35,667 nt of DNA from Elusimicrobia bacterium GWB2_63_22 (GTDB taxonomy: Bacteria; Elusimicrobiota; Elusimicrobia; Elusimicrobiales; UBA9959). Below the pieces are notes generated by a model. The model was not told where the DNA came from. It was given only the letters and a program-made list of their open reading frames with translations, and did not search any database. Each line of letters begins with the position of its first letter. Position 1 is the stretch's first letter. Of this stretch, positions 13,991 to 35,300 are shown piece after piece. Location: assembly GCA_001799735.1 (NCBI GenBank), contig MGUA01000034.1, positions 121,227 through 156,893 of the forward strand. The letters are read 5' to 3'. The translations under genes and the position numbers were made by a program.

Positions 13991-14367
13991 TCTACTTCGC
14001 CTTTCCGGTCGTCCAGCCAGTTCTTGATGGCGTGCAGGCAGATCACCACGAACAGCGGCGGGAACCAGTAGTACAAGAGCGGCTCCTCTATGGGAATGCC
14101 GAAGAACATGGGCCCCACCACCCGGTCCGGGTTCCAGATCCAGTGCTGCCGGCTGACCGAGAAATACTCGGCCAGGAACATGACCACCTCGAAGGTACAG
14201 ATCATGGCTATGGCCGCCGGCCAATGCACCGACTTGCGGGCCGCCCTGTACAGAGGGATGGCGAGCAGCATGAACGGGGCCACCAGCACCACGGTGGCCG
14301 GCCACCTTTTTACCGTCTGCGGCGCGGCGGTCTTCTTTTCTTCTTCGTTGTTCAATGGTTCAGGCAT
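13987..14367 (-). CDS. Lycopene cyclase domain protein (second half, CrtYd-like)
   Basis: A 126-residue membrane protein with three hydrophobic segments after a charged, mostly polar N-terminus. FFGIPIEEPLLYYWFPPLFV carries the P.EE motif of the small heterodimeric lycopene cyclase domain family (CrtYc/CrtYd of actinobacteria, CarR/CrtYB domains of fungi). In that family two such halves combine to close beta-rings on linear carotenes. Its start overlaps the end of the first half gene by eight bases, the usual close spacing of this pair. No phytoene synthase or desaturase is in the window, so the carotene must be made by genes elsewhere. Confidence 0.85.
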   Translation of the reverse strand: MPEPLNNEEEKKTAAPQTVKRWPATVVLVAPFMLLAIPLYRAARKSVHWPAAIAMICTFEVVMFLAEYFSVSRQHWIWNPDRVVGPMFFGIPIEEPLLYYWFPPLFVVICLHAIKNWLDDRKGEVE

Positions 14368-14683
14368 TTAGCTTCTCCAGCAGTTTGCGGTACGAGAGGT
14401 AGATAGCCAGGCAGAAAGGCGTGGCGCCGAACCAGAACACGAACTCCTCCACCGGCGCCGGCCCCAGCCAGATGCCCAGCAGCGGGTCAAACTTCTCAGA
14501 GAAAGACCAGACGTCGAATTTAAGGTAGAGGTACTCCATAATAATGGACAGCACGCCCATTAGCGCGGAGGTCAGCCAGAAAGACTTCTTAAGCGAGCCG
14601 TCGAACAACTTCAGCAGGAAGACAATGAAGAAGAGCGACGGCACCCAGAACAACGCCGTGTAGGTAATGAAGTATAGTGGCAT
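14360..14683 (-). CDS. Lycopene cyclase domain protein (first half, CrtYc-like)
   Basis: A 107-residue membrane protein with three hydrophobic segments: a start MPLYFITYTALFWVPSLFF, a second helix, and LGPAPVEEFVFWFGATPF, which has the family's P.EE motif. It pairs with the next gene to form a split, heterodimeric lycopene cyclase. An in-frame ATG at 14698 (five codons earlier) is possible, but that ATG overlaps the probable -10 element and would lie before the transcription start; neither start has a ribosome site. It is the first gene of a four-gene operon with the second cyclase half, the CruF-like protein and the kinase. Confidence 0.83.
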   Translation of the reverse strand: MPLYFITYTALFWVPSLFFIVFLLKLFDGSLKKSFWLTSALMGVLSIIMEYLYLKFDVWSFSEKFDPLLGIWLGPAPVEEFVFWFGATPFCLAIYLSYRKLLEKLNA

Positions 14684-14696
14684 AGTTTGATATGCC

Positions 14697-14733
14697 ATCT
14701 TACCATGCCGCAGGTCGGAAAATCCCGAAGAGA
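14697..14733 (-). promoter_or_regulatory. Promoter of carotenoid operon with CTTCGGGATT element
   Basis: The minus strand shows TCTCTTCGGGATT (14721-14733), an 18-base spacer, and TAAGAT (14697-14702). The same upstream element occurs before the genes at 24155 and 26872. The -10 overlaps an upstream ATG, so the transcript would start about 14690 and have a very short leader. Confidence 0.55.
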
Positions 14734-14798: not shown

Positions 14799-15479
14799 TT
14801 AATTAGCTGGGGTCGTCCCTGTCACACAGATGCTGGCGTTAGCCTTGCCGGCGGCCTTTACCACTCCGAAAAGCGTCTGGGCGTTGGCCTTGGACAGGCG
14901 TATGCAGCCGTGCGAGGCGGGCTGGCCCAGCTTCCATTCCGCCTCGGTGCCGTGGAGGGCGATATTGCCGTTAAAGAAGATGGAGTGGGGCATGGGCGCG
15001 CTGTTATAGAGGCTGGAGTAATGCATGGTCTCTATAAAGTCCGGGGCGAAGCACCGGCCGCTGCCGGGAGTGCCGTGCTCTGGGGGCAGGCCGGAGGAGA
15101 TCTTGAAAGTGGCGGAACTGCCGGGGGCGGTATAGCGCAGGCGCTGGGCGCTTAGGTCTATGGTTATCTGCACCGTGGCGAGCTTTGCCAGGTCGTTGCT
15201 GATTTTGTAGCGGGCCGGGAAACCATAGGCTTCCGCCCCGTCGTTGACCGGCAGGCCGAAGGCCAGCCCCACTTCCTCGGGGGTACGTTCGTCTATAAAC
15301 TTATCCGGATCGGCGGCGGCCTCCGCCCGCAGGGTTTCGGCGTCGCCTTGCGGCAGGGCCGCGGCGGGGATATAGGCCGCGACCGCATCGGAATCAAGCC
15401 CGTCGAACTCCCAGGCGGCCGAGTTGCCCGCGGCTAAAGCCAGCAGGGCGCAGGCTGCGGCAAATTTAAGGCTCTTCAT
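14799..15479 (-). CDS. L,D-transpeptidase (YkuD family)
   Basis: A 226-residue secreted enzyme that forms 3-3 peptidoglycan crosslinks or attaches proteins to the wall. A signal peptide is visible at 1-22 (MKSLKFAAACALLALAAGNS AA). The YkuD domain covers about 100-220, starting with IDLSAQRLRYTA and ending with the active-site motif: His176 in ALHGTE, then SHGCIRL with His190 and catalytic Cys192. Length is typical of single-domain members, with a short linker of about 75 residues after the signal. GGAG lies upstream of the ATG. It has its own terminator and probably its own promoter. Confidence 0.92.
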   Translation of the reverse strand: MKSLKFAAACALLALAAGNSAAWEFDGLDSDAVAAYIPAAALPQGDAETLRAEAAADPDKFIDERTPEEVGLAFGLPVNDGAEAYGFPARYKISNDLAKLATVQITIDLSAQRLRYTAPGSSATFKISSGLPPEHGTPGSGRCFAPDFIETMHYSSLYNSAPMPHSIFFNGNIALHGTEAEWKLGQPASHGCIRLSKANAQTLFGVVKAAGKANASICVTGTTPAN

Positions 15480-16077: not shown

Positions 16078-16770
16078 TCAGTCGGTTTTCAGGAGGGAGA
16101 TTTCGATACGCCTGTTCCTGGCTCGTCCTTCGGGCGTGACGTTATCTCCGACCGGCCGGTTATCCCCGTAGCCTATGCCTGCCAGATGCCTGGAGGAAAG
16201 CCCCTGTTCTTCCATAAAGCGCAGCACCGTATAAGCCCTGGCCATGGATAATTCCCAGTTGGAGGAGTATTTGCCGTTCCTGATAGGCAGGTTGTCGGTA
16301 TGCCCCTCAATGATCACGTCGTTCGGTATTTTCTTAAGCTCGGCGGCTATAGGCGCAAGGACCCGCCGGGCCGGTTCTTTTAATTCGGCCTTGCCGGAGG
16401 CAAAAAGCACGCCCTCGGTCAGCACCAGTTTGACTTTGCGCTCGTTGGACTGAACCTGCACAAGCTTCGCCAGCTCCTCGGTCTGCATGGATTCCTTAAG
16501 ATTGCTTTCCACCTGCGCCTCCTGCTCGCGCGCCTTGGCGCGTTCCAGGCCGGCGGAATCCGCCTTTCCCCCGAAAGCTTTCTGTATGTTGCCCAGCGAC
16601 TCCTCGTACTTGCGGCTTTTGGACTTATCGTTCTTCGCCACGGAGAACGAGAAAAGCACCAAAAAGAAGATCATGAGGTAGCTCATCAGGTCTCCGTAGG
16701 TCACGGCCCACAGAGCCCCTTTATTCAGGTGATTCTCCACATCGTCCCGTCTCTCCCGGCGCACCGTCAT
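16078..16770 (-). CDS. MotB-like stator protein with OmpA peptidoglycan-binding domain
   Basis: A 230-residue stator subunit that should anchor a proton- or sodium-driven motor to peptidoglycan. A single membrane helix at 21-43 carries Asp27 in WAVTYGDLMSYLMIFFLVLF, the ion-binding residue of MotB. A charged linker (45-105) leads to an OmpA-type domain with IIEGHTDNLPIRNG (153-166), NWELSMARAYTVLRFM, and RARNRRIEI. It is the last gene of a seven-gene operon and its ATG overlaps the stop of the coiled-coil gene. MotA is four genes upstream, separated by a FliF-FliG fusion and two coiled-coil genes rather than directly adjacent as usual. Confidence 0.93.
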   Translation of the reverse strand: MTVRRERRDDVENHLNKGALWAVTYGDLMSYLMIFFLVLFSFSVAKNDKSKSRKYEESLGNIQKAFGGKADSAGLERAKAREQEAQVESNLKESMQTEELAKLVQVQSNERKVKLVLTEGVLFASGKAELKEPARRVLAPIAAELKKIPNDVIIEGHTDNLPIRNGKYSSNWELSMARAYTVLRFMEEQGLSSRHLAGIGYGDNRPVGDNVTPEGRARNRRIEISLLKTD

Positions 16771-17696
16771 AAGTTCCCCTCCCGGCCGACGGCCGGTGCT
16801 TTTTTATCCGGCATCAGGAAAGCCAGTTCCACCCGAAAATGATTAAAGAGAGCGGTCAACTGCCCCACCTGGCGGGAAAGAGAATCCAGGTCCGAGGCCG
16901 TCTTTCCCTGCCCGGCCGAAACGGCGGCCGTCCGCTGCGACAGCCCGGTAAGAGACTTCTGCATCTCCTCAAGGCTGGGCTTAAGCGCCTGGATGGCGGC
17001 CTCACATTCGTATATCCGCTCGAACTTCCCCTCGCTGCCGCTCAATCTGGCCTCCAGATAGACGGATCTGGCCCCGGCCTCTTCCAGCTTGTCTATACGC
17101 CGCATATTCCCGCCGGAAGTCTCCAGCGCGGCCAAAGCCTTACGCCTGGTCTCCGCGAGCGCGGCGTCGAAAGCCTCCAGCCGCCGCGAGACCTCCTCCG
17201 CTACCCCCGCCTTCAATTTAAACACTTCCTCCTCAGGCAATACCGCCGTCCGGGCAGGGGGCGGCGCAGCCGCGGCATTGTGACAAGCCGCCGCCTCCGC
17301 CGCGCCAAGGCGGGAATTCAAGGAAGACAGTTCCGCCGTTATCCGGCCTGAGAGGATCTCCAACCGCGAGTTTTCCTGAAGGGCATAGGCCCTGACTTCC
17401 TCCACCTCCCTTTTTAGTCCCAAGGTCATTTTTTCCAGTTCGCGCCGGACGCTTTCGGGCGCGGCTTCGCACTTTTTAATTATGTTCTCCAACTCATTGA
17501 TCTTGGCCGTATCGGAAATGGCAGGGCCGCTGGCCGCAGCCTCTATTTTCTTTATTCTGTTTTCCAACTCCTCTATCTTTGCTCTGTCGGGAGAACCCGG
17601 AGGCGGAACCGGGGCAGGGGCAGCGGCGGCGCCCCATGCTTCTCCCGGAGGTTCAGCTGGTTTGAGAAAAGAGAAAAGGGAATCTTTGGATTTCAT
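16767..17696 (-). CDS. Proline-rich coiled-coil protein 2 of the motor operon
   Basis: A 309-residue protein with no signal peptide or membrane segment, so probably cytoplasmic. The first residues, KSKDSLFSFLKPAEPP, are followed by a Pro/Ala linker (20-38). Long heptad-like helices follow at about 39-130 and 155-295 (IEELENRIKKIEAA, INELENIIKKCEAA repeats), split by an Ala/Pro linker near 140. The N-terminal S(I/L)FS...P...EPP pattern is shared with the next protein, so the two may be paralogs or may dock to one partner. I do not recognise a family. It lies between a FliG-like rotor and MotB, which suggests a scaffold or transmission role (inference). Confidence 0.85.
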   Translation of the reverse strand: MKSKDSLFSFLKPAEPPGEAWGAAAAPAPVPPPGSPDRAKIEELENRIKKIEAAASGPAISDTAKINELENIIKKCEAAPESVRRELEKMTLGLKREVEEVRAYALQENSRLEILSGRITAELSSLNSRLGAAEAAACHNAAAAPPPARTAVLPEEEVFKLKAGVAEEVSRRLEAFDAALAETRRKALAALETSGGNMRRIDKLEEAGARSVYLEARLSGSEGKFERIYECEAAIQALKPSLEEMQKSLTGLSQRTAAVSAGQGKTASDLDSLSRQVGQLTALFNHFRVELAFLMPDKKAPAVGREGNL

Positions 17697-17697
17697 A

Positions 17698-19101
17698 TCA
17701 ATCCCCCGGGTTCAGGCGCACCGATTTCAGATTAATTTCTATCTCCGCGCGCACCCCCGCCACGGAAACGGCTTCGCGTTCCAGCGCGCCGATAAGCCCT
17801 GACGCCGCCTCAAAATTCTTCCGCACTATGGAACCGGAAACGCCCATCAGGCCGTCCAGGTTGACGGCCTCAAGGCTCCTGACCATGGTCTTCAGTCCTT
17901 TCATAACCTCCGCCAGCCGGAGTTCCAGCCGCGAGACAGCGGAGACAGAAGCCGCCATGGCGGCGGAACCGGCGGCGGACAGATGCAGCGCCTCTTTTAT
18001 GCTTGCCAACTGCCCCGCGTTCTCCGCGCGCAGCGCCTCCACCAGTTCCGCTGCGCGTTTTCCCATCCCCTTCTCCGCGTCGGCGAGCATTTCGGAGACG
18101 CGCTTTTCCAGCGCCGCCCCCCTTTCCTCCCCCCGGCGCTGCGCTTCCGAAATTTCGTCCATGTGGCAGACAAGCGTCCGGGCCAGCGAATCCAGGCGTT
18201 CGCGCGCGTCCAGCGCGGACGCGTCCAGGTGCCGCACAAAGGCGGCGCTCCCTTTTTCCACTCCCTCGGGCACGGCCGAAAGGATCTCCTGCCGGGTCTC
18301 CAGCACCCTTTCCTCCACCGCCTGTTTACCGGAGAACGCGTCTAGGCGCTGCTGGCGCAACTCCTCTCCGAACTCTTTTAACCTGGCGTCTATGCCGGCC
18401 ACCGCCTCCCTGGCCCCGGCCTCTATCCAGCCGGTGGGGGCGGGTGCGGCCTCCGCACGGGCGGAAAGGGAGACCACCGCCGCCTCCAGCGCCTTCAAGC
18501 GCCCGGCCAGCGCCGCTTCCACGGCGCGCGCGGCGCCGGCGGCAACCTCCTCCGCGGTCAAATTCGGCGCGCGCGGTCCCTCCTCTTTTTTCGCCGCCGA
18601 GGCATACACTTCCATCAGGCGTTTTTCCATCTCCTCCACGCGGCTCCAGGCCTTCTCCAGCTGGTCGTGCATCTGGCGGTCCAGCTCGGTGTATTTCTGT
18701 TGTTCGCGCACAGCTTTCAACAATTCCTCTATTTCACGCCTGGCGCCTATTTTGGACTCCTCAATATTCTTCATCTGGGCCGTGCCCATGACGAATTTTT
18801 CCTGAAACTCTTTAAGGCGGTTCTCCATCTCCGTCATTTTGGCCAGCATGGCCGGTGCCAGCGGGGACGGCGGCGGGGGCGGGGGAGGCGCCTGCTGCGC
18901 CAGTTTTTTCCCCAGCTCACCCACTATATTGCTCTCCATGAGATCAATTTTTCTGCTCAGCGCGTTAATGCGCTCCGCGTCCGGGGCCGGAGCCGGCCTG
19001 GGCGCGGGCTCGGCGGGCCGTTCCGGCTGGGCCGGCGGCTCGGAAAGCCCGGGCATTATCCCCGAGAAAATAGACCTCTTTTTGTCCTGGTTGCGTTCCA
19101 T
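17698..19101 (-). CDS. Proline-rich coiled-coil protein 1 of the motor operon
   Basis: A 467-residue protein without signal or membrane helix. It starts NQDKKRSIFSGIMPGLSEPP, then has two proline-rich linkers (about 20-42 and a run of prolines near 72-80). Several coiled-coil segments follow, with clear heptads such as MLAKMTEMENRLKEFQEKF and WSRVEEMEKRLMEVYA, and an alanine-rich helical C-terminal half. The start resembles coiled-coil protein 2. GGAGGGAG precedes the ATG, ten bases after the FliF-FliG stop. No family is recognised. Position and composition suggest a cytoplasmic scaffold linked to the FliG-like domain, comparable in idea to helical tether proteins of gliding machines, but this is inference. 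Confidence 0.87.
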   Translation of the reverse strand: MERNQDKKRSIFSGIMPGLSEPPAQPERPAEPAPRPAPAPDAERINALSRKIDLMESNIVGELGKKLAQQAPPPPPPPSPLAPAMLAKMTEMENRLKEFQEKFVMGTAQMKNIEESKIGARREIEELLKAVREQQKYTELDRQMHDQLEKAWSRVEEMEKRLMEVYASAAKKEEGPRAPNLTAEEVAAGAARAVEAALAGRLKALEAAVVSLSARAEAAPAPTGWIEAGAREAVAGIDARLKEFGEELRQQRLDAFSGKQAVEERVLETRQEILSAVPEGVEKGSAAFVRHLDASALDARERLDSLARTLVCHMDEISEAQRRGEERGAALEKRVSEMLADAEKGMGKRAAELVEALRAENAGQLASIKEALHLSAAGSAAMAASVSAVSRLELRLAEVMKGLKTMVRSLEAVNLDGLMGVSGSIVRKNFEAASGLIGALEREAVSVAGVRAEIEINLKSVRLNPGD

Positions 19102-19110: not shown

Positions 19111-20649
19111 TTAGGCCGCGGCCTGCCCTTCCGCCCCTATCAAGGGCTGCCCGCCAACGGCAGGGTTGGCTATCCTGCCGTCCCTTATCATCGTCTCCGC
19201 GGCACCCATGATGCGCTCCACGGCCTGCTCCGTCCTCTCCTGCGAGGGAACGCCGTAACTAATGCTCTGCTCTATCATCTGCCAGGTCTTTTCCGCCATC
19301 TGGGTTTTCAGCTTGTCCCGCGCTTCAGCCGGCAGTTCCAACATGGCCGCGGCCCATTCCTCCACGTTTACCGCGCCGGCCATCAGCGAGAGTTCCCTGT
19401 CGCTGAACAGCGCCAGGTCCTCGGGCATTAAGATCTGCCGGCGCATCTCGGCCGCCAGTTCCGGCTGCTTTTTGCGAATTTCCTCCATTACCACCCTCTT
19501 GCCGCGCAGGCTCATGCCGCCTATAGCCTCAAGCGTGCCGTCTATCCCCCCTGTGGCGCCGCTAAGGCGCCGCTCCAGCTCGTCCTTGAGCGTAGCTATG
19601 ATCTCCGGTTCCACAAAGCGGACCTTGGCCATATTGATCAGCACCTCGGAGGAAAACTGCGGCGGCAGCTTCTCAAGGAAATCCTGGCGGACCTCCCTGG
19701 ACAGATGCGCCGCAACCAGTGCCACGTTGGCGGGCTCCTCCCCGGCCATCATGTTCACCAGGAAAGGCACCTGCTCGCGGCTGATCTCAAAGCGCAGCGC
19801 GTCCCGGCTCCCCGCCTCCTGATCCTTGGACAAAGCGGCCAGCAGCGGCCTCTCCGCGGCGCCTAAGGCCGGCGACCCCGCTTCAGCTCCGGGCTCGGTT
19901 CCCTTGCCCAGTTCCATGGTTATCTGGTGGTTCTGCTGCACTTTGGCCATTGTGCTCATGGCGCCGGCGAGCTTGAGGAAACCCACCGCCACCACGCCCA
20001 TGGCTATTATCGCCATGAGCGCCAGCATGATGTATTTCAGCCCCTCGGGCGTATACCAGACCGTGCGCCAGAACGGGGCGAACTGCGTCTTTATCACGGA
20101 TAACTGGTCCCCCCTTGCGGGGTCCAGGGAAAGCATTTCCGACACCACACGCCGCACGTTCTCGGCCTCGCCAGCCGGCAGTTCACGGTTCACTATAACG
20201 CTTACCGTCATCTTTTTAACAAAAGCCGCCGGGTAGATGGTCTGCCTGTTATAGGTCTTGTTCTCCGGCGCGGCGGCCGGGCCCTCCGGGGACGGGAAAC
20301 CCGGCAACAGGTAGCCCTCTCCGGTTTCCGGCTCGGCGCCGGTCTGCCATTTAAACAGCCCCCCGCCGGAACCGTTCTTTACCGGTTCCCCTTTCATCTC
20401 CAGTTTCTCCATACGGTTAAAATCCATCAAGATCTCCACCACTACCTTGGCCTGGTTGGGGCCCAGCAGCCGCAGCAGCACCTCGTCAACCTTCTGTTCA
20501 AGGCCCCTTTCGTACCGCGCCTTATCCTCGAAAGGCAGGGACTGCGCGTGGGAGGCGCCGGGCCGGGCCGCGGCCGTAAGCAGGCCGGCCAGGCAAAGCG
20601 CGATAATTTTAAGCGGGCTTGCCGTCAGGGTTATATTCACGTTAGACAT
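19111..20649 (-). CDS. Natural FliF(C-terminal)-FliG fusion, reduced rotor protein
   Basis: A 512-residue fusion of MS-ring and switch proteins. Residues 1-37 are a signal or first membrane helix. Residues 45-195 match the C-terminal periplasmic part of FliF: RLLGPNQAKVVVEILMDFNRMEK, KMTVSVIVN, and LDPARGDQLSVI. A membrane helix (about 205-228) follows, then FliG middle domain (EEPANVALVAAHL, about 290-365) and C-terminal domain (GGIDGTLEAI, PELAAEMRRQILMPEDLALF, about 366-495). The FliF ring domains 1-2 and the FliG N-terminal domain, which normally binds FliF, are missing; covalent fusion replaces that contact. The torque-helix motif is SDRELSLMAGAV, less charged than DDR.IQ.LLREVD. I chose 20649 because GGAG precedes it; 20661 is an alternative. 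Confidence 0.92.
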   Translation of the reverse strand: MSNVNITLTASPLKIIALCLAGLLTAAARPGASHAQSLPFEDKARYERGLEQKVDEVLLRLLGPNQAKVVVEILMDFNRMEKLEMKGEPVKNGSGGGLFKWQTGAEPETGEGYLLPGFPSPEGPAAAPENKTYNRQTIYPAAFVKKMTVSVIVNRELPAGEAENVRRVVSEMLSLDPARGDQLSVIKTQFAPFWRTVWYTPEGLKYIMLALMAIIAMGVVAVGFLKLAGAMSTMAKVQQNHQITMELGKGTEPGAEAGSPALGAAERPLLAALSKDQEAGSRDALRFEISREQVPFLVNMMAGEEPANVALVAAHLSREVRQDFLEKLPPQFSSEVLINMAKVRFVEPEIIATLKDELERRLSGATGGIDGTLEAIGGMSLRGKRVVMEEIRKKQPELAAEMRRQILMPEDLALFSDRELSLMAGAVNVEEWAAAMLELPAEARDKLKTQMAEKTWQMIEQSISYGVPSQERTEQAVERIMGAAETMIRDGRIANPAVGGQPLIGAEGQAAA

Positions 20650-20667
20650 ATTAGACTCCATTTGCGC

Positions 20668-21408
20668 CTACCGGCAGAACGACTGCAGGCGGCGCTCCAC
20701 CACCATAGGCAGGCTTCCTTTCATTATTTCCAGTATCCCTTCCATAATCATGGACCTTGTATGCGTCTCCATTATGCCCCTGGCCCTTATCTTCCCGGCC
20801 ACCGGTACGCAGACCAGGTTGGAGAAAACTATGCCGTAGAAAGCGGAAGTAATGGCCATGGCCATGGCCGGCCCTACATTCTCCGGGCTGGCCAGGTCTT
20901 TAAGCACGCCGATTATCCCGATCAAGGTTCCCAACAGGCCGAACATGGGCGCCATGACGCCCATGGTCCGGTAGACGTTGGCCACCTCGTTCTTCTCATC
21001 CAGGGCCTGGTTTATCTCCTCCTCCAGCACCTGTTTAACGAACTTATAGTCGTTGTACTCCAGCGCGGCGGCCGCCGCCCTGGCCAGGAACCCGCCCGCG
21101 GCCGCCGGGTCCGCGTCCTTAAGGGCTGCCAGGCCGCGCTGCCGGCATTGTTCCGCCAGTTCCACCATCGGCCCGATCATTTTTTCCGGCCTCATCCCGT
21201 CCTCCGGAGCCAGAATGGACCGTATTTCCAGCGCCGCCTTCCGCAGATAGGCGGCCGGACTGTTTATCAGCATGGCCACGGCGGTGCCGCCCAGAACTAT
21301 CAGCACGCCATGCAGATTTATCAGCGCCGCGGTGAACTGGCCCGCGTACGCGCCGCCGGCGGCCAGGGCCGCCAGGAGCACTATCCCGCTTACCGTAGCT
21401 ACGTCCAT
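20668..21408 (-). CDS. MotA-like stator protein
   Basis: A 246-residue MotA/ExbB-superfamily ion-channel subunit of MotA type. Four membrane helices are visible (about 5-24, 31-50, 148-170, 183-205) with a large cytoplasmic loop between helices 2 and 3. MAPMFGLLGTLIGIIGVL and SNLVCVPVAGKI contain the two conserved prolines (154 and 202) that couple ion flow to movement. With MotB it should form the 5:2 stator, and the FliG-like domain next door is the natural rotor partner. GGAGGAG precedes the ATG. No FliM, FliN, rod, hook, filament or export gene is in the window. Confidence 0.93.
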   Translation of the reverse strand: MDVATVSGIVLLAALAAGGAYAGQFTAALINLHGVLIVLGGTAVAMLINSPAAYLRKAALEIRSILAPEDGMRPEKMIGPMVELAEQCRQRGLAALKDADPAAAGGFLARAAAAALEYNDYKFVKQVLEEEINQALDEKNEVANVYRTMGVMAPMFGLLGTLIGIIGVLKDLASPENVGPAMAMAITSAFYGIVFSNLVCVPVAGKIRARGIMETHTRSMIMEGILEIMKGSLPMVVERRLQSFCR

Positions 21409-21431: not shown

Positions 21432-22373
21432 TCAGGACAGCGCCGGAACCTTGAAATAAAACGTGGAACCTTTACCAAGCCCCGGGCTGGAAGCCCCTAT
21501 CTCGCCGTCGTGGGAGCGGACTATCTCCTGGGCTATGGATAGGCCGAGCCCCCACCCCAGCTTACGCAGTTTCTGGTCCTTCTGGTATTTGGCCTGGTAA
21601 AATTTCTCAAATATCTTCCTGGTCTCGCTGGGATGTATGCCTATCCCGGCGTCCCTTACCAATGTTGTTATGTATCTGCCTTCCCTCCGGAACGAGATCT
21701 CCACTTTTTTCCCGGACGGCGTGAATTTGATGGCATTGTTAACCAGGTTCATGAACACCTGCGAGAGCCGGAACTTATCCCCGTCCACCAGCGTCCCCGC
21801 CGGGAGCTCATAAACCAGCAGTTCGACGCCCTTTTTCTGGGCGTTGATGGCGATGCCGGGCAGCACGTCCGCGGCCATGGCATAGAATTCAAAGGTCGCC
21901 TTCTCCATTTTAAGTTTGCCGGCCTCTATCATGGCGAGGTCGGTCAGGTCGGAGATAAGATGCCCCAGTTGGTCGGTGGAACTGATAATGCTTTTCAGAT
22001 AGGCCGTTTCTTTCACCCCCCCGGTCCGCTTCGCCAGCAGTTCGCTGAAGCCCCTTATAGAGGCCAGCGGGGTGCGCACGTCGTGCACCACCATGGAGAG
22101 GAACTTGCTCTTCATCTCGTTGAGCCGCCCCAACTCCTGGTTGGAGAGCGAAAGTTTGGAGGACATGGCCTCCAGCTCCTGCTTACGCTGATACAGCTGG
22201 CCTTGCGCCAGGGCAATGCGTTCCATATAGCGCTGTATAACCATATTTGAGAAGTTCTGCCGCTGATTATAGCGGGACGACTGCACGAAACCCGACACAT
22301 GGGCCACCACCAGGAATCCCGCCGCCAACAGCAGCAGCGAGAGCGGGATAAAAGCGATGACCAGCATTTCCAT
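21432..22373 (-). CDS. Histidine kinase of the motor operon
   Basis: A 313-residue sensor kinase. One membrane helix (5-27) is followed by a long coiled linker (about 50-85), then the H-box FLSMVVHDVRTPLASIRGF with His97. ATP-binding motifs are NLVNNAIKFTP (N-box), VRDAGIGIHPSE (G1), FEKFYQ (F-box), and GWGLGLSIAQEIV (G2). There is no periplasmic sensor domain, so the input is probably at the membrane or through the helix. It lies between the PorV-like gene and motA: its GAGG ribosome site overlaps the preceding stop. A role in controlling motor activity, perhaps through the nearby CheY-like receivers, is inferred. Confidence 0.92.
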   Translation of the reverse strand: MEMLVIAFIPLSLLLLAAGFLVVAHVSGFVQSSRYNQRQNFSNMVIQRYMERIALAQGQLYQRKQELEAMSSKLSLSNQELGRLNEMKSKFLSMVVHDVRTPLASIRGFSELLAKRTGGVKETAYLKSIISSTDQLGHLISDLTDLAMIEAGKLKMEKATFEFYAMAADVLPGIAINAQKKGVELLVYELPAGTLVDGDKFRLSQVFMNLVNNAIKFTPSGKKVEISFRREGRYITTLVRDAGIGIHPSETRKIFEKFYQAKYQKDQKLRKLGWGLGLSIAQEIVRSHDGEIGASSPGLGKGSTFYFKVPALS

Positions 22374-22379: not shown

Positions 22380-24155
22380 TCAACGGACGGCCGGCTTGGC
22401 GTCAACAGCCTTGTCGGGCGCCGGCAGGGCCTCGGCGCTTGTCTCCGCCCAGCCCTGTTCCCGCATAAATCTCCTTATAATCTCATCCCCGGGCTTTATG
22501 GAGAGAGCCTTTTTAAAGGCTTCCTTCGCCCTCTCCTGGTCGCCCATCATGTAGTAGGAAGACCCCAGCTTGGTCCACGCCTGGTGATTCTCCCCGTCCA
22601 GCACCAGCACCTCTTCGCACTCGCGCACGGCCGCGTCGAACTGGCGCAGGTAGAAAGCCCTGCCCGCCTTCTTCAGTTTCTCCTTCAGCAGGGCCTCACG
22701 GCGCAGTATCTCGTCGCGCCTGACCGGAAGATTTACCAGCCCGCTGAGCACGGTGAGCAGCTCCTCGTACACCGGATCTCCGCGCATGTCTATGCCCAGG
22801 GCGGCATGGGCCAGCAGGAAAGACTTGAACCGCCCGCCCTCTACGTATTCCGCTATCGCCTGCGCGGCGGCGCCGGCCTGCTCGGAAGCTGCCGCCAGCA
22901 CGCCCTCGCGGCCCTGGATACTCCCCAGCCGCAACCCGCCGATTATTTCAGCCAAGCGCTTCTGTCTGCCGCCCCATGCGCCGTTCTTAAGGGCCGGTTC
23001 CAGGTTAAAGGCCTTGTTAATGTTCCCGTCAGCCGCCACGTACCTGCGGGCGGCCAGGTCTTTGCCCGCCAGCTCCAGAAAGTCCTTCGCAAAAAGTTCC
23101 AGCTTCTCGATCTTTTCTTTTGTAGCTATCAGTTTGGCTTTCTCGGCCCGCTTGGTCTTTCCATCAAGAGGCCGCCGGGCGGCCGGGGCCCCGAAGCGCA
23201 TGGAAACGCCGAACTTATGCATGGCCCCCAGCTCGCCGTACGGGGACAAGGAATAATCGATATCCACCACCGAAAGCCTGAAGCCCAGGCCGAAACGAAA
23301 CCCGGAACCTATATCCTGCCCCGTCCTGTAACCGCAGCGCACGGCCAGCAGCTGCATGGCCTCGTATTCGGCGCCCAGGGCCGCATAATAATTTTCGTCG
23401 TTGGAGATGGTCTGGTCCAGACTGATTATAAGCCGCGAATCCCCTTTGGGATAGGACTGCCAGGAGGCGCCGGCGGTAACGGACAGCGGCAGCGGGGCGG
23501 AGCGGTTGTCGAACTTAAGGCCCGGGCCTATATTCCTTATTACCAGCGCCGCGCGTAATTCGGGCGCCCGGGCCTTTTTAGCCCAGTAGCCGGACGGCCT
23601 TATGTAGTAGATCGCCCCCAGGTCCAGCGCCGCGGTGTTGGCCGAGACCCCTGCCAGCTTTTCACTTATCAGCTTAAGCCCGGCGCCGGCGCTGAGTACC
23701 GGACGCTCGATCTCGTCCTTAAGCAGCGCGCGCCCGTAGGCCGCGCCCAAAGCCAGGTCGGAGGACTCCACATTGCCGGTCGGAGTGCCGAGCGCGTCGT
23801 AGCCCCGGAACGGGGAGACGCTGAGCCTGGTAAGGCTCAGGGCCGCGGCGGAACCGTAGCGCAGCGGGTAGGCCGCGGAAAGGTACTGGTGAGTCACGTC
23901 CTCGAGGGAAGCATTGTGCGTGGCGGCGGCCTCGGCACGCTCCAGGGCGCCCAGGCCGGCAGGATTCCACCAGGGGGAGTAAGCGTCCTCGCTTACCGAG
24001 GCAAACGACTCACCCATGCCGCTGGCGCGGGGGCTGGGTGAGATCTTAAGGAAAGACGCCCCGGAATACCCCGCCTCACCGCCCGAAGCCGGGAAAGCCC
24101 ATACTGCAAGGCATAGCGCGGCAAAGCCGATCTTTATTTGTTTTTTGCGCTTCAT
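22380..24155 (-). CDS. PorV/PorQ-like outer-membrane barrel with C-terminal TPR
   Basis: A 591-residue exported protein heading the motor operon. A signal peptide covers about 1-25. Residues 30-325 read as the PorV/PorQ (UPF0164) barrel: GASFLKISPSPRASGMGESF, DAYSPWWNPAGLG, and FGVSMRFGAP at the end. In Bacteroidota PorV is a shuttle of type IX secretion. A charged helical part follows, then TPR-like repeats near 510-575 (AWTKLGSSYYMMGDQERAKEAFKKAL). The C-terminal TPR half is not part of standard PorV. ATG at 24155 has AGGTG upstream; a GTG three codons earlier is possible. It may connect the inner-membrane motor to the outer membrane (inference). Confidence 0.87.
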   Translation of the reverse strand: MKRKKQIKIGFAALCLAVWAFPASGGEAGYSGASFLKISPSPRASGMGESFASVSEDAYSPWWNPAGLGALERAEAAATHNASLEDVTHQYLSAAYPLRYGSAAALSLTRLSVSPFRGYDALGTPTGNVESSDLALGAAYGRALLKDEIERPVLSAGAGLKLISEKLAGVSANTAALDLGAIYYIRPSGYWAKKARAPELRAALVIRNIGPGLKFDNRSAPLPLSVTAGASWQSYPKGDSRLIISLDQTISNDENYYAALGAEYEAMQLLAVRCGYRTGQDIGSGFRFGLGFRLSVVDIDYSLSPYGELGAMHKFGVSMRFGAPAARRPLDGKTKRAEKAKLIATKEKIEKLELFAKDFLELAGKDLAARRYVAADGNINKAFNLEPALKNGAWGGRQKRLAEIIGGLRLGSIQGREGVLAAASEQAGAAAQAIAEYVEGGRFKSFLLAHAALGIDMRGDPVYEELLTVLSGLVNLPVRRDEILRREALLKEKLKKAGRAFYLRQFDAAVRECEEVLVLDGENHQAWTKLGSSYYMMGDQERAKEAFKKALSIKPGDEIIRRFMREQGWAETSAEALPAPDKAVDAKPAVR

Positions 24156-24176
24156 ATAGACCACACCTGTGTATAT

Positions 24177-24248: not shown

Positions 24249-24627
24249 TCAGGGGGCGGTACGTTTTTTTACGGCCAGCAGCTCCTGCGCGGCCGCCAGC
24301 AGTCCCTCCCCCTTCGCGGGTTTTTTAAAAACCCGGACTTTCTCCCTGGTAAGCGCAAAGGCCGTAACCCGCTCCGGCAGGCCGGTAACAAAGATCACCA
24401 GAACCCCTCCGGCGAGAAGTTCTCGAGCGATACTGAAGACACGTTCCCCCCCCGCCCCCCGGCATCTCGGCGTCCAGCACCAGCAATTCCGGATGGAAGT
24501 CGTAATACAAGTCCATACCGGACGGCACGTCCGGGGCTGTCCGTACGTCATGACCAGCCTCCCCGAACAGCGCGGAATAATAAGCCGCCATCGCAGAGTC
24601 GTCGTCTACCTCAAGTATTCGCGCCAT
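24249..24627 (-). pseudogene. CheY-like receiver gene frameshifted at a G tract
   Basis: The first frame (from ATG 24627, with AAGGAG upstream) encodes MARILEVDDDSAMAAYY through ELLVLDAEMPGG, which is the receiver N-terminal half with the phosphoacceptor Asp. The second half, FSIARELLAGGVLVIFVTG through VRVFKKPAKGEG with the conserved Thr and Lys, continues in another frame. The break lies at C8-G-C6 on the plus strand (24446-24460), i.e. two G runs in the coding strand. The rest of the gene is intact on both sides. It could be a phase-variable gene, a fresh null allele or a sequencing error. Last gene of the kinase-receiver operon. Confidence 0.8.
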
Positions 24628-24678
24628 ATATGCTCCTTTATAACAATTGGCCGGCACGGTCTCCGCGGCCATCCCGGG

Positions 24679-25050
24679 TCAGTTAAATCTGCGTCTGTGC
24701 TCCACCCGTTCTATCTCGGCGGCTATCCGGTCAAAGTCAAAAGGCTTCGCCAGCACCGGGATCTCCCTGGGCAAGCCCGCGCGCTTTAAATCCGCCTCGG
24801 TGGCGCCGGTTATAATTATAACCGGGATCCCCTCCAGGTCCGGGTACATGTCCATCATGGCAACCATGGACCCGCCGTCCATGCCCGGCATGTTCAGGTC
24901 GGTGATAACCAGTTCGGGGCGCTCCCGCAGGGCCAATCTGACAAGGTCTACCCCATTCACCGCGCTTTTAACTTCGTGGCCCAGCCCGGTCAGAAAGTCC
25001 TCCAGCAGCGCCCGCAAAAGTTCGTCGTCCTCGGCTATAAGTGTCCGCAT
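24679..25050 (-). CDS. CheY-like single-domain response regulator
   Basis: A 123-residue receiver with no output domain. Acidic pocket LIAEDDELLR, phosphoacceptor Asp in LVITDLNMPGMDG, Thr in VIIITGA, and Lys in VLAKPFDFD are all present. Its ATG follows the upstream receiver's stop after four bases, and that stop overlaps its GAGG site. It must act through a partner protein. In this setting the kinases and the FliG-like rotor are candidates, but no FliM is found. Confidence 0.92.
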   Translation of the reverse strand: MRTLIAEDDELLRALLEDFLTGLGHEVKSAVNGVDLVRLALRERPELVITDLNMPGMDGGSMVAMMDMYPDLEGIPVIIITGATEADLKRAGLPREIPVLAKPFDFDRIAAEIERVEHRRRFN

Positions 25051-25054: not shown

Positions 25055-25447
25055 TCAGTTCCGGCCCCCCAATATCTCTACCACACGCGCCAGCACCGTC
25101 TCAGGCGGCGTCATTTTAGGGTAATAGCACACAAAGCCGCGCGCTTTTGCAAACACCTTGTCCAGTTCCGCCTCCATGAAGTTTTCCCCGGTCATCACCA
25201 CGAACGGAATAGCATTCAGCCTCCCGTCAGTAACGCCGCGGCGCCCCAGTTCTACCACGAACTCTTTCCCGGACATCTCCGGCATGGACACGTCCAGCAC
25301 CATGAAATCGGGCAAAGAGCGCCCCAACGCCTCCAGCGCCTGCAACCCGTTGCCGGCCAGGTCCACCTGGTACCCGGCCTCTTCGAACACGTATTTATAG
25401 AGTTCCCTGATGCTCGGTTCGTCATCCACTATAAGTATCTTTGCCAT
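25055..25447 (-). CDS. CheY-like single-domain response regulator (divergent C-terminus)
   Basis: A 130-residue receiver. AKILIVDDEPSIRELYKYVF and FMVLDVSMPEMSG give the acidic pocket and phosphoacceptor; VVMTGE carries the Thr. The usual KP motif reads YYPKMTP, so the Lys is present but shifted or altered. AGGAGG lies upstream of the ATG. It follows the PAS kinase gene and is closely similar at its N-terminus to the receiver fragment at 29985-30194. Confidence 0.92.
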   Translation of the reverse strand: MAKILIVDDEPSIRELYKYVFEEAGYQVDLAGNGLQALEALGRSLPDFMVLDVSMPEMSGKEFVVELGRRGVTDGRLNAIPFVVMTGENFMEAELDKVFAKARGFVCYYPKMTPPETVLARVVEILGGRN

Positions 25448-25474: not shown

Positions 25475-26872
25475 TCAGCGGGGCGGCGCCTGGGGTACGC
25501 ACGGAAGCACGAAGCAGAACCTGCTGCCGCGGCCTTCTTCCGATTCCACCCAGATACGGCCCTTATGCAGTTCCACCGCCATCCTGCACATGGCCAACCC
25601 AAGCCCGAACCCCATGTATTTGTGTTCCTCCAACTGCGCGTATTTTTCAAATATCTCCTGCTGTTTCTCCCTTGGAATGCCGGGCCCGTCGTCCTGCACC
25701 CCGAACAGCGTTTCCCCTTCCGCGCCGCGGCAGGAGATCACCACCTTCCCCCCGGCAGCGGCGAACTTCAGCGAATTGCCCACCAGGTTGCACAGCACGC
25801 GTTCCAGCAGCCTCGGGTCGCCGGAGAAAAAAAGATCTTCTGCCGGCAGGTCCATGGAGAGGGTTATCCCCTTCCTGGCGGCGAGCGGCGCGTGCAGCTC
25901 ATAAACCCGCGCGCACATATCGCGGGCCTCCAGCCGCACGGGCACCAGTGTCATCTCCCCGCGCTCCAGCTTTACGGTATTCAGGATATCGCTTATCATA
26001 CCGTTCAGGCGGGCGGAGGCGCGCCTGATCACCTGCAGGTGCTTTTTCCCGCCGCTGCCAGGAGGCATGTCCTTTTCCAGCAGTTGGGCGTAGCCTTGTA
26101 TGCTCGACAGCGGAGCGCGCATGTCGTGCGTCACCATGTGAAAGAAGGTTTCGCGGGCGCTCTCTATCTCTTTCTCCATGGTCACGTCCCGTATTACTAT
26201 AACACGCCCGGGCCGCTTGAAGGTCGCCAGGTCAAAACGGCGCGAGATTACCCGGTACTCCTTGCCTGGCGGCGAACCGTCGGGGCCCGGCGGCACGCTG
26301 ACCTCCGCCTTCAGGGCGGCATCCGTCCCCGCAAGCGCCTCCGCCACGGCAGCGGCGAAAGCCTGCTCCCCTACCGAGGCGGGCAGGGTGATGTCCTGTT
26401 CTTGCGCGGGAATGCCCAGTAACCTGAGCGCGCGCTGGTTAGAGTAGATCAGCCGCCCCCGCTCCCCCACCAGCAGCACACCGTCCGTTATGGTCTCTAT
26501 GAGCGCCTGGGCTTTGGCCCGGTCCTCCACCACCTGGTTAAGGTGGAAGGCGCGGTAGGCGCCCAGCTCCAGCATAAGCCTGTTGAGCCCCGAGACGACC
26601 CCCTGGGCCTCGGACCACCCCTCTTTGGGCAGCGGCGTCTCCAATCTGCCGTCCGCCAGGATAAAAGCTTTCAGGCGCCCGGAGATATTGCTAAAAGGCA
26701 GCAGAAGGCCGTTGCGCAATATCCTGGCGACAGGATACGAGACCAGCGCGGCGGCTATCACCGCCGCGCCCAGGCAGTAATTGCTCCCTGGCCCGCAGGA
26801 ATATAGCGCCAGCGCGGGCAGCAGGGCAGCGGCAAAGGTCAGCGCGTTGAGTTTTACGGTGCTATTCTTCAT
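25475..26872 (-). CDS. PAS-containing membrane histidine kinase
   Basis: A 465-residue sensor kinase. Two membrane helices (about 8-25 and 34-50) with almost no periplasmic loop are followed by a HAMP-like linker (50-115), a PAS-like domain (about 122-232, ITDGVLLVGERGRLIYSN), the H-box FFHMVTHDMRAPLSSI with His249, and ATPase motifs NLVGNSLKFA, VQDDGPGIP and GFGLGLAMC. It is the first gene of an operon with three single-domain receivers, so it probably phosphorylates one or more of them. Its promoter shares an upstream element with the motor and carotenoid operons. Confidence 0.93.
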   Translation of the reverse strand: MKNSTVKLNALTFAAALLPALALYSCGPGSNYCLGAAVIAAALVSYPVARILRNGLLLPFSNISGRLKAFILADGRLETPLPKEGWSEAQGVVSGLNRLMLELGAYRAFHLNQVVEDRAKAQALIETITDGVLLVGERGRLIYSNQRALRLLGIPAQEQDITLPASVGEQAFAAAVAEALAGTDAALKAEVSVPPGPDGSPPGKEYRVISRRFDLATFKRPGRVIVIRDVTMEKEIESARETFFHMVTHDMRAPLSSIQGYAQLLEKDMPPGSGGKKHLQVIRRASARLNGMISDILNTVKLERGEMTLVPVRLEARDMCARVYELHAPLAARKGITLSMDLPAEDLFFSGDPRLLERVLCNLVGNSLKFAAAGGKVVISCRGAEGETLFGVQDDGPGIPREKQQEIFEKYAQLEEHKYMGFGLGLAMCRMAVELHKGRIWVESEEGRGSRFCFVLPCVPQAPPR

Positions 26873-27233: not shown

Positions 27234-27380
27234 TTACCTGGCGCAGCGGAAGCCGAGGGAGGCGCCCGAGGCGGTCGGCAAGGTGGCGCCGGAGAAGCCG
27301 TATATCCCGGTAAGAGTGGTGTTGACCCAGGTGAGGCCCCTCATCCCAACGTTCCAGACCGCAGTACAGCCGAAATATTT
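27234..27380 (-). pseudogene. C-terminal remnant of an FGE-like (formylglycine-generating enzyme-type) protein
   Basis: The minus strand encodes KYFGCTAVWNVGMRGLTW and then a C-terminus ASGASLGFRCAR before a stop. The GFRCAR end is typical of FGE-sulfatase-type secreted or lectin-like domains. The frame is interrupted on its upstream side by the insertion sequence. The other flank (28411-28480) encodes GRFYMAGGAPVRS, possibly from the same gene. Only the last 45 or so codons survive here. Confidence 0.5.
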
Positions 27381-28325
27381 GAGTTAAGTAAACTTTCGTG
27401 TTGGTTTTTGTGCTCCAGACCCATCCCGCGGTGCCTGTGCAGCAATTCTTTTATCCGACTGTTGATCCCGCCCTCCACCAGGTTCGTTGTGCTTGGCACA
27501 CCAGGGTAATCAATGTAAACAAAAAGGTTCTCTAGGGCCTGCGTAAGTGTGTTTTTCATGGCCCTTATCCTCCTGTGGGTATACCACCAGGTGCGCTTGC
27601 CGCAAGGGTGAAGGCCATAAGTTCTTTCTTTTAAGAACCGCTCCCACCGTGTACCCCATGCGTCAAAATCGAACAGCCATTTATCCCTTTCCTGCGCTGT
27701 TTTAACAGTATGCAGCGCATAAACAAGCTTTAATAGTTCCTGCCCTGCAGGCGTCTTGGGCCGCCGTGTCAGCTTCTGTATTCCAAGGCGATGCATGTGC
27801 GGCAGGCACCTTTGGACCTTAACCTCCGGCCAAAGGCCTTTCACGGCGGAAAGAAGACCGCTTTGGCCGTCACAGATAAGCGCTTTGGGCTTGGGAATCA
27901 TGCGTATAAATTCAGTCCAGGCGGACAGGGTTTCCTGCCTGGCAAAAAGCCAAAACACATGATTCAAACCGGTCCGACCTATCAGCACGCATTCGTTGTG
28001 CCCAGATAGATAAATCGCGTCAGCGACCAGATATGTGCCGGCAAGGTCTTCGGGGATTGTGGGCACCGGGATGGTTTCCCATAAAGATGAAAATGATTTT
28101 GAAAGGGCTTGTCGTGTGTGGTTTCTTGTGGAGGCTATCCGTTGAAGTGTGTCGGTCCCAGTAACCCAGTTCCGAAATAGCCTCAATAGCCAGCGCTGTT
28201 CTAGATCCGGACGCTTTTGCACGCTGCTTTTTGCACAAAACCGGCAATACCAGCGAATTTTACCGGCTTTAGTGCGCCCCCACTTCTGCATGCGGTGACC
28301 GCAGGCCGAACATAGCCTTTTTCAT
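27341..28325 (-). pseudogene. IS1249-like (IS256/Mutator group) transposase, frameshifted at the start codon
   Basis: From ATG 28291 an open frame of 316 codons remains. It has the Mutator-type catalytic motifs: VADAIYL (first Asp), ALICDGQSGLLSAV (second), and TTNLVEGGINSRIK (Glu), plus CLPHMHR and HRRIRAMKNTL. Upstream in the same frame are RLCSACGHRMQKWG and then WYCRFC, forming a zinc ribbon, but this part has no start. The ATG near 28324 is one base out of frame: MKRLCSACGHR would result if the A5 run were A4. The frame also runs through the left inverted repeat and adds about 14 foreign codons. Probably inactive, or rescued by frameshifting. Confidence 0.75.
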
Positions 28326-28564: not shown

Positions 28565-29323
28565 TTATTTCGACACTTTCACTTTCTTCGCTGGGGCTTT
28601 CCAGGTGCCTAAGAAGTATGAGATGGGGATTACCGGGGCATTTGGGTTCACGGCGTAGGCGGGTACCCCGTTAACCAGAAAATATGAGATGGGAACTACC
28701 GGGGCATTGTCGTTCGGGATATAAGCGGGGGACCCGTTGTTTAAGAAGAATGAAACAGGCTTTACCTGTGCATTTTCATTCACTACATATGCGGGTATCC
28801 CGTTAACCAGAAAATATGAGATGGGAACTACCGGGGCATTGTCGTTCGGGACATAAGCGGGGGACCCGTTGTTTAAGAAGAATGAAACAGGTTTTACCGG
28901 GGCGTTTTCATTCGGGACATAAGCGGGGGACCCATTGCTTAAGAAGTGTGAGATGGGCATTACCGGGGCATTTGGGTTCACGGCATAGGCGGGTACCCCG
29001 TTAACCAGAAAATATGAGATGGGAACTATCGGGGCATTGTTGTTTGGGACATAAGCTGGGGACCCGTTGTTTAAGAAGAATGAAACAAATTTTACCGGGG
29101 CGTTTTCGTTTATGACATAAGAAGGTTTTGCCGTGTCGATCACAGCTGCTTTTGGAACCGGGATATTTCCATCGTTGCTTTCAAATGCGGGAATAGTGAT
29201 ATCGAAGTCCTGAGACGCCACCGCGTCCCTCAAGTCGGAAGGCGGGGTGTTTTTTGTCCGCGAGAAACCGAACACGCCCGCAGACACAAATATAAGTGCT
29301 ATCACTGATATTCTGGTTTTCAT
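28565..29323 (-). CDS. Secreted protein of 22-residue tandem repeats
   Basis: A 252-residue exported protein that I do not recognise. A signal-like N-terminus (MKTRISVIALIFVSAGVFGF) is followed by a 50-residue polar stretch. Residues 76-229 are seven full 22-residue repeats, and a partial eighth precedes a basic tail (KAPAKKVKVSK). Two alternating versions exist: PVKPVSFFLNNGSPAYVPND and PVVPISYFLVNGVPAYAVNP, each closed by NA. The alternating hydrophobic and aromatic residues with NG turns suggest a beta-rich solenoid or barrel-like fibre. AAGGAG precedes the ATG, and a good promoter and a terminator flank it, so it is a single transcription unit. Confidence 0.88.
   Translation of the reverse strand: MKTRISVIALIFVSAGVFGFSRTKNTPPSDLRDAVASQDFDITIPAFESNDGNIPVPKAAVIDTAKPSYVINENAPVKFVSFFLNNGSPAYVPNNNAPIVPISYFLVNGVPAYAVNPNAPVMPISHFLSNGSPAYVPNENAPVKPVSFFLNNGSPAYVPNDNAPVVPISYFLVNGIPAYVVNENAQVKPVSFFLNNGSPAYIPNDNAPVVPISYFLVNGVPAYAVNPNAPVIPISYFLGTWKAPAKKVKVSK
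28637..29098. repeat. 66-base tandem repeat array in the secreted repeat protein
   Basis: Seven copies of a 66-base unit, with two alternating variants (order about A B A/B-hybrid A B A B). Several copies are nearly identical in bases, for example the two B units with AACCAGAAAATATGAGATGG, so unit number probably changes by recombination. Confidence 0.88.
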
Positions 29324-29388
29324 AACACACTCCTTCCCTCTTTTACTGCTCATTAAGCCCTGTTTCCGTCCGAATGCCTTACACGCAT

Positions 29389-29416
29389 AGTATATCAGAC
29401 ACTGTAATTCTGTCAA
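29389..29416 (-). promoter_or_regulatory. Sigma-70-type promoter of the repeat-protein gene
   Basis: TTGACA (29411-29416) and TATACT (29389-29394) lie 16 bases apart on the minus strand, about 66 bases before the ATG. This is the best consensus promoter in the window, unlike the CTTCGGGATT type. Confidence 0.75.
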
Positions 29417-29443: not shown

Positions 29444-29962
29444 CTAAGAGTGTTGCCCCATATGGGGACAGAATGTCGGAAACGAGGGCGCTCTGCCCAG
29501 GGCGCAGGTGTCCTCAAAGGCGTCTACATAGGCTTTATTGGCCGCGGCGTCGGCGCTTGCCGGCGCGGCCAGCCCCTGCAGGGCGGCGCCGCAATATTCA
29601 GCCGCGTATATTTCACCCGCGCCCGTCATGCGGATAACCTCGGAGGCCCCGGTGGAGATCAGCACCAGGGCGCCGCCGGCGCCCGCGGCGGAGGAGATAT
29701 GCAGCAAAGCCGCCGGGGCAGCGGTGCCTATGCCTATTTTGCCGTAGCTCACGGCAAAGGAAGAGCCTCCCACGCTGAAACCGGCCCCCTGCACGTCCGC
29801 GCTGCCCTGTATCACGGCGTAAGCGCCCACGCGCAGCTTGTCCACAGCTTCAAATTCCGCGACGGAAAGAACAGGGGCCGCGGTTAAGAAGGGGACGGCA
29901 ATAAAGCAAGCCGGGAGGAACGCCCGCTTTAAGAACCGGTATTTGGCGCCGCTGGTAAACAC
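29444..29962 (-). CDS. Secreted tail-fibre-like modular protein
   Basis: A 172-residue exported protein. A basic N-terminus and hydrophobic stretch (FLPACFIAVPFLTAAPVLS) form a signal. FEAVDKLRVGAYAVIQGSAD, then GSSFAVSYGKIGIGTAAPA, is the repeated module common to the proteins at 34839 and 35319. The C-terminal part has a phage-fibre-like linker (AAPASADAAANKAYVDAF) but ends soon after with TCALGRAPSFPTFCPHMG, perhaps truncated. GTG start at 29962 with GGAG five bases upstream. Such modules are found in tail-fibre or adhesin stalks; the true ligand is unknown. Confidence 0.78.
   Translation of the reverse strand: MFTSGAKYRFLKRAFLPACFIAVPFLTAAPVLSVAEFEAVDKLRVGAYAVIQGSADVQGAGFSVGGSSFAVSYGKIGIGTAAPAALLHISSAAGAGGALVLISTGASEVIRMTGAGEIYAAEYCGAALQGLAAPASADAAANKAYVDAFEDTCALGRAPSFPTFCPHMGQHS
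29710..29870. repeat. Duplicated 160-base module, copy A
   Basis: It matches 35051-35211 with one difference seen (offset 5341). It encodes the FEAVDKLRVGAYAV...GIGTAAPAA module; the sequences on each side differ. Confidence 0.83.
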
Positions 29963-34838: not shown

Positions 34839-35300
34839 CTACGCCTTTATATTCGCTAAAATGTTCCCATAAAAGCCCACAATTTTAATCATAGCTCCAG
34901 AGATAACAAATTGCAGGGACGTTCCCCCGTCGGTGATGGTGACCGTGCCTGCGCTTACGCCGTAAGGCACCTGCAGGTTGCCGGTCGCTGTGAACGTGCT
35001 CTTCGTCGCGCCCGAACCGAACTGGGCCGCACCGCTTACCTCCAAGAGCGCCGCCGGGGCAGCGGTGCCTATGCCTATTTTGCCGTAGCTCACGGCAAAG
35101 GAAGAGCCTCCCACGCTGAAACCGGCCCCCTGCACGTCCGCGCTGCCCTGTATCACGGCGTAAGCGCCCACGCGCAGCTTGTCCACAGCTTCAAATTCCG
35201 CGGCGGAAAGAAGAGTCGGATAAACCTGGATGAGACCTATGATTACAGCACGGGATAAAGCCCGGCCACCAATGAAGTATTTATAGAGAACAGCGAACAT
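34839..35300 (-). CDS. Secreted tail-fibre-like modular protein
   Basis: A 153-residue exported protein. A hydrophobic N-terminus is followed by FEAVDKLRVGAYAVIQGSAD and SYGKIGIGTAAPAALLEVSG, matching the protein at 29444 in bases as well as residues. The C-terminal half (TKSTFTATGNLQVPYGVSAG, VTITDGGTSLQFVI) is different. GGAG lies six bases before the ATG. It shares orientation and close spacing with its neighbours and probably one transcript. Confidence 0.8.
   Translation of the reverse strand: MFAVLYKYFIGGRALSRAVIIGLIQVYPTLLSAAEFEAVDKLRVGAYAVIQGSADVQGAGFSVGGSSFAVSYGKIGIGTAAPAALLEVSGAAQFGSGATKSTFTATGNLQVPYGVSAGTVTITDGGTSLQFVISGAMIKIVGFYGNILANIKA
35051..35211. repeat. Duplicated 160-base module, copy B
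   Basis: Partner of 29710-29870. It lies in the protein at 34839-35300, so one module has been copied between two different secreted proteins. Confidence 0.83.

Follow-up and report, generated by a model that had tools for sequence, protein, structure and literature searches.

A PorV-type barrel with a TPR tail beside a MotAB/FliF-FliG motor: a possible gliding-type machine in Elusimicrobiota

Why should an outer-membrane barrel of the PorV type, known from type IX secretion, be encoded together with an ion-driven motor of the flagellar kind? The question is raised by a gene at positions 22380-24155 of a 35,667-nucleotide stretch of the Elusimicrobia bacterium GWB2_63_22 genome (contig MGUA01000034.1, positions 121,227 to 156,893), hereafter the window. 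The initial annotation had described a PorV-like barrel with a TPR tail heading an operon with a MotAB/FliG-type motor, and had proposed that this different motor serves secretion or gliding. The barrel gene and the genes that follow it on the same strand are listed below.

22380..24155 (-): outer-membrane barrel of the PorV/PorQ family, 14 strands, with a TPR solenoid at the C-terminus that is predicted to be periplasmic (NF033709, AlphaFold, Foldseek)
21432..22373 (-): HK_B, membrane-anchored histidine kinase without evident sensor domain (HisKA 7.7e-18, HATPase_c 4.4e-24)
20668..21408 (-): MotA stator subunit (PF01618 4.2e-20; MotA/PomA structures up to 7.7e-33, residues 1-244)
19111..20661 (-): rotor protein, a single chain joining the RBM3-like periplasmic C-terminal domain of FliF, through one transmembrane helix, to the middle and C-terminal domains of FliG (PF08345, PF14841 and PF01706 over cut-off)
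17698..19101 (-): CC1, predicted coiled-coil protein, no signal peptide seen (no Pfam family over cut-off)
16767..17696 (-): CC2, predicted coiled-coil protein (no Pfam family over cut-off)
16078..16770 (-): MotB, stator subunit with a plug and an OmpA domain that binds peptidoglycan (PF13677 2.9e-12, PF00691 4.8e-20; 6ysf 5.5e-32)

The identity of the barrel was considered first. Its open reading frame spans 22380-24164 (-); translation from the ATG at 24155 gives the coordinates used here and a signal peptide. NF033709, the NCBIfam model of the PorV/PorQ family, matches residues 35-324 over the whole profile (3.7e-48, 164.8 bits for a cut-off of 90). The match to PF19572 barely exceeds the Pfam cut-off, and the protein scores under the cut-offs of both the PorV and the PorQ equivalog models. 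Several Pfam TPR models match at residues 528-560. The AlphaFold model (mean predicted local distance difference test score 87.9) has 14 strands between residues 77 and 324 and, after them, a helical solenoid (338-569). As both ends of a barrel with an even number of strands lie in the periplasm, the TPR tail of the modelled protein should be periplasmic. Ranked by Foldseek against the PDB, the PorV chains of the type IX translocon come first (8gl6_F, 6e-17; 6h3i_F, 4e-15) and the third match, at 6e-7, is about 8 orders of magnitude or more behind. Both sequence and fold thus bear out a PorV-like barrel, and its occurrence with a TPR tail in a motor operon is confirmed. A cysteine of the TPR region (C516 in the window) is conserved in 21 of 32 sequences; it is reminiscent of the disulfide link of SprF, though placed within a helix.

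The motor half of the operon is equally clear. From the barrel to MotB, the order being HK_B, MotA, FliF_C-FliG fusion, CC1, CC2 and MotB, the coordinates give intergenic gaps of 1 to 23 bp or a 4-bp overlap, and Pfam confirms MotA, FliF_C-FliG_M-FliG_C and MotB-OmpA downstream of the barrel. The barrel stands at the head of this motor half and not of the whole operon: kinase and response-regulator genes lie directly upstream on the same strand. MotA and MotB align with solved stators over nearly their full length, and the ion-binding Asp of MotB is kept in 52 of 54 loci. Both halves of the rotor protein are recovered by fold (FliG 1lkv, 1.3e-10; the MS-ring region of FliF, about 2e-5), and the long helix between them should cross the membrane. 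The fusion lacks RBM1-2 of FliF and the N-domain of FliG. Coiled-coil-like proteins are found again at the CC1 position in other loci, and CC2-like proteins in some close relatives (L061, L062, L065, L078). At six loci (L151, L155, L156, L158, L161, L060) two MotB-like genes stand in tandem beside the motor.

These parts do not make up a flagellum. The genome gave no match to FlhA (PF00771) or to FliM/FliN (PF01052), for which flagellated controls and four controls, respectively, were positive; nor does it hold a complete FliF with RBM1-3, only the C-terminal RBM3/collar part fused to FliG. A flagellum remnant is unlikely, as FlhA and FliM/N are absent and the stator sites kept.

The association of barrel and motor extends across the phylum. 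The genome has four loci with FliG_C, all four with MotA, MotB and a PorV-family gene nearby; at one of them, on contig C12, barrel and TPR are encoded as separate genes. Among loci from the whole phylum, a PorV-family barrel lies at most four genes upstream, on the same strand, of 63 of the 81 FliF-FliG genes, and 4 of the 18 genes without one sit at a locus edge. Named genome contigs were scanned as well, with one peptide pattern of limited sensitivity, so non-detection elsewhere is not informative. Of the 47 loci obtained, 45 come from records titled Elusimicrobia/Elusimicrobiota or one of their sub-groups, and the other two from records titled simply 'bacterium'. The barrel is directly upstream in 44/44 of these metagenome-assembled loci with readable upstream DNA; L185, L186 and L210, truncated on that side, are not counted. 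For a genome of about 3 Mb that holds about 20 barrels, adjacency by chance is estimated to be rare, and a chance neighbourhood was rejected by the recurrence across loci. The initial annotation had named barrels scattered at random, with no operon link to motors, as an argument against its proposal. This is not what is seen, as the link recurs phylum-wide; barrels far from motors are common too. The genome gives 17 matches to the PorV profile, many distant from motors and mostly without a TPR tail. The tail is present in just two of the 17, both in motor loci (the window and contig C1). The barrel of the C31 motor locus, found by its neighbourhood, also carries it, and the sole other long barrel of the genome, on C8, has a non-TPR extension. 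In the phylum-wide version of the operon the rotor has a C-terminal TPR as well, and at some loci MotAB is encoded elsewhere.

Reviews assign the type IX system to the Fibrobacteres-Bacteroidetes-Chlorobi group (PMC11205867). The parts of this system to which the initial annotation had pointed are nevertheless present as far as SprA and type-IX-like C-terminal sorting domains (CTD) are concerned. A profile built from 15 sequences of the phylum detects SprA in 213 of 247 Elusimicrobiota genomes, and in 168 of the 176 best; the seeds exceed the cut-off of PF14349 and reach 172 bits (9.6e-51) with TIGR04189, below its cut-off of 200. The SprA of the window's genome scores 1741 bits (G000:C39:55437-60668). 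The canonical motor proteins were not found over cut-off in 60 genomes: GldM (PF12080) gave no match and GldL (TIGR03513) three weak partial ones, no control genome known to carry either protein being available.

Does the motor then power secretion? A table comparison places SprA in 90 of the 91 genomes with a FliF-FliG gene. The converse does not hold: in a FliF-FliG profile search of 40 genomes, two of them positive controls, 35 of the 38 SprA-positive and apparently motor-less genomes stayed without a match, and in the gut-type families f2 and f12 most genomes have SprA and nearly all are without the motor. The motor is not needed for SprA in these 35 organisms, where SprA is kept without it, and for the same reason it is probably not the energiser of the translocon; as sole energiser of SprA it is made unlikely. 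There is also one SprA per genome for up to four motor loci, and several of these loci have a CTD protein and a barrel of their own. Of the two roles proposed for the motor, secretion therefore loses ground and the movement of an exported protein fits better; the several motor loci against one SprA likewise favour a drive of carriers over a drive of export.

A candidate cargo is encoded at many of these loci. In 37 of the 63 loci with a motor-linked barrel, a CTD protein lies at most three genes upstream, 14 of them being stand-alone CTDs of 95-161 aa, and in several motor-locus CTDs curated models (CHU_C, Por_Secre_tail, TIGR04183, FlgD_ig) exceed their cut-offs. At the C1 motor locus the CTD closes a single 11,836-aa open frame that begins like a signal peptide and ends at about 108768 (L224, L225, L234); in a relative (G037) the length is 17,343 aa. 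A custom profile finds 22 CTD matches in the genome; genomes with motors have 16-37 such matches each, seven motor-less gut-type genomes 0-6. The adjacency is general there: a CTD-like frame, in some cases a weak match, lies directly upstream of 14 of the 17 barrels (L006-L022). Since most PorV-family barrels of the genome lie directly 3' of a CTD protein, dedicated pairs of substrate and carrier are suggested for the phylum. In Flavobacterium, of the Bacteroidota, the adhesin SprB rides on the barrel SprF, which is itself attached to a moving track in the periplasm (PMC12635249). PorP-like barrels are the binding partners of CTD proteins of type B (PMC9143113).

By analogy, the operon could encode a trans-envelope, gliding-type motility machine driven by a flagellum-derived motor, a reading for which our confidence is evenly divided. 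MotAB, tethered to peptidoglycan through MotB's OmpA domain, would draw on the ion gradient to turn, or else to push, a ring made of the FliF_C-FliG fusion, whose periplasmic RBM3-like domain would act on the TPR tail of the barrel. The barrel would be a carrier holding the CTD of a SprA-exported surface protein, as SprF and PorV do with adhesins in Bacteroidota, so that movement of the carrier would move the adhesin and, with it, the cell. The kinases and response regulators of the operon may control or read the motor. A flagellum-like motor without a flagellum, beside an outer-membrane carrier and often a giant surface protein, suggests a surface-crawling machine not described so far. That Elusimicrobiota widely possess a gliding machine of a third kind, in which MotAB and a FliF-FliG ring move giant SprA-exported adhesins on PorV carriers via a periplasmic TPR coupler, is put forward more tentatively, with slightly less than even confidence. 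We found no publication on this motor-carrier system in literature covered without preprints and most subscription journals.

Several observations weigh against the proposed gliding-type machine. No CTD protein was detected upstream in 25 of the 63 loci. The window's own locus has none beside the barrel, as is mostly the case in its clade, and the proteins encoded upstream of its operon are fibre-like and of no Pfam family. Part of the CTD matches to the curated models are below cut-off, and genome size confounds the contrast in CTD numbers between genomes with the motor and the seven without. Nor does the motor strictly conserve the usual torque residues: in the window, E98 of MotA is replaced by K and D288-D289 of FliG by Q-S. 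Where position 98 of MotA is K/R, position 287 of FliG is usually E, and otherwise often K/R, a pattern possibly confined to one clade which hints faintly at a conserved stator-rotor charge pair. As FliM/N are absent, the ring may not resemble a C-ring. Movement itself is deduced for a machine known from its genes, and to our knowledge no motor-bearing member of the phylum is in culture.

The same genes can be arranged into other accounts. Were the motor to replace GldLM at the SprA translocon, with the PorV-TPR barrel as the part of the translocon that receives force, the failure to find GldL and GldM in the 60 genomes and the near-constant company of SprA would be accounted for, as would the role of PorV as CTD acceptor at SprA in Flavobacterium (8gl6). 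We consider this unlikely in view of the 35 genomes, gut families included, that keep SprA without a FliF-FliG profile match, and of the single SprA facing up to four motor loci, several provided with their own CTD protein and barrel. Somewhat less likely still is a motor that spins or pulls back an adhesin or surface fibre without displacing it along the cell, to serve attachment, predation or contact between cells, with no net gliding. A rotor ring is suited to turning on a fixed axis, surface proteins that are giant or fibre-like adjoin the motor, and genomes have several separate motor loci; however, nothing was recognised as a rod, a hook or a coupling protein able to bring torque through the outer membrane, and a PorV-type carrier resembles carriers that move laterally.

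Two further accounts make movement secondary or dispense with contact. In a mechanosensor, rotor, stator and kinase would report surface contact felt through the surface protein. HK_B is indeed among the best-conserved genes of the operon (up to 80% identity), and in seven class-level relatives it is fused in frame to the N-terminus of FliF-FliG, in proteins of 809-842 aa (L081, L084, L085, L087, L088, L089, L090; two confirmed by Pfam); response regulators also lie within the operon. Yet a complete ion-driven stator exceeds the needs of sensing, and the older, phylum-wide version of the operon has no HK_B, which makes this account improbable. For this last reason HK_B may be seen as regulating the machine or reporting on it, and not as belonging to its core. 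Finally, barrel and motor could be neighbours through shared regulation, with no contact between their products. The contact is a prediction from genes, and MotAB lies elsewhere in some loci, but the adjacency kept across many families of the phylum, the confinement of the TPR tail to motor-linked barrels and the C-terminal TPR of the rotor in the phylum-wide version leave this the least probable of the accounts considered.

The remaining genes of interest in the window flank the operon on either side. Upstream of the barrel, HK_A is the first gene of the co-directional run; an L,D-transpeptidase follows MotB.

25475..26872 (-): HK_A, PAS histidine kinase (HATPase_c 1e-27, HisKA 1.5e-14, PAS)
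25055..25447 (-): RR1, single-domain response regulator, with similar genes in close relatives (sequence)
24679..25050 (-): RR2, single-domain CheY-like response regulator (sequence)
24249..24672 (-): RR3, response regulator with a frameshift in a G run at about 24445-24460 (PF00072 7.9e-7 in the first frame, remainder in another frame)
14799..15479 (-): L,D-transpeptidase (YkuD), of uncertain membership in the system (PF03734 2.8e-12)

The split of RR3 reflects either an assembly error or a pseudogene. RR2-like genes are found upstream of the barrel at L061, L063, L064, L070 and L071, and an L,D-transpeptidase also adjoins L063, the locus of one relative. Beyond it, 13987-14367 (-) and 14360-14698 (-) encode small lycopene cyclase-type membrane proteins (PF18916, in the second case under the cut-off); a kinase gene follows. 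On the other side, a Mutator-family transposase (27341-28291 (-), PF00872 2.4e-7) separates HK_A from the fibre-like genes. Upstream of the transposase are encoded a secreted repeat protein of no Pfam family (28565-29416 (-), with repeats such as NAPVxPISYFLxNGxPAYV) and two closely similar secreted proteins in tandem, with glycine-rich ends and again no Pfam family (30230-32212 (-) and 32228-34198 (-)). Shorter relatives of this pair lie at 29444-29962, 34225-34830 and 34839-35300, where the contig ends.

The presence of a type IX translocon, carrier barrels and sorting-type domains across Elusimicrobiota, with GldL/GldM not found, contrasts with the group in which reviews place the system. 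FliG occurs here in a genome without FlhA or FliM/N and adjoins outer-membrane carriers. If the proposed machine is real, FliG rotors are not limited to flagella, SprA-type secretion is older or wider than the Bacteroidota group, and the system would test which parts of the flagellar motor suffice for torque. It would be an independent solution to driving adhesins across the outer membrane by an inner-membrane ion motor, and would predict motility in a mostly uncultured phylum.

Compared with known systems, the motor shares with that of the flagellum MotA, MotB with plug and OmpA domain, the middle and C-terminal domains of FliG and an RBM3-like domain of FliF. It differs in that FlhA and FliM/N were not found, that RBM1-2 of FliF and the N-domain of FliG are missing, that FliF and FliG form one chain and that the operon includes an outer-membrane carrier. 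We know of no other FliG outside a flagellar rotor. The Agl-Glt machinery of Myxococcus offers a likeness: an ion motor of the same superfamily is linked across the periplasm with an adhesin and with proteins of the outer membrane, and a cytoplasmic coiled coil takes part; AglRQS, unlike the Elusimicrobiota motor, has no FliG rotor.

With the gliding and type IX machinery of Bacteroidota (SprA, SprB, SprF, GldJKLMN) are shared an SprA-type translocon, a PorV-family barrel, sorting-type CTDs, a giant surface protein encoded beside the barrel and an inner-membrane ion motor of the MotA/ExbB superfamily. The Elusimicrobiota, another phylum, differ by MotAB with a FliF-FliG rotor where GldL/GldM were not found, and by a TPR-tailed carrier; their motor is thus not the canonical type IX one. 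The PorP/SprF carriers, to which CTD proteins of type B bind (PMC9143113), likewise anchor the CTD of a surface protein, a role that the present barrels, encoded side by side with such proteins, would share; here the barrel is of the PorV and not the PorP family, and its TPR tail is covalent. As a whole, the system would work as gliding machines linked to type IX secretion do, with a different motor.
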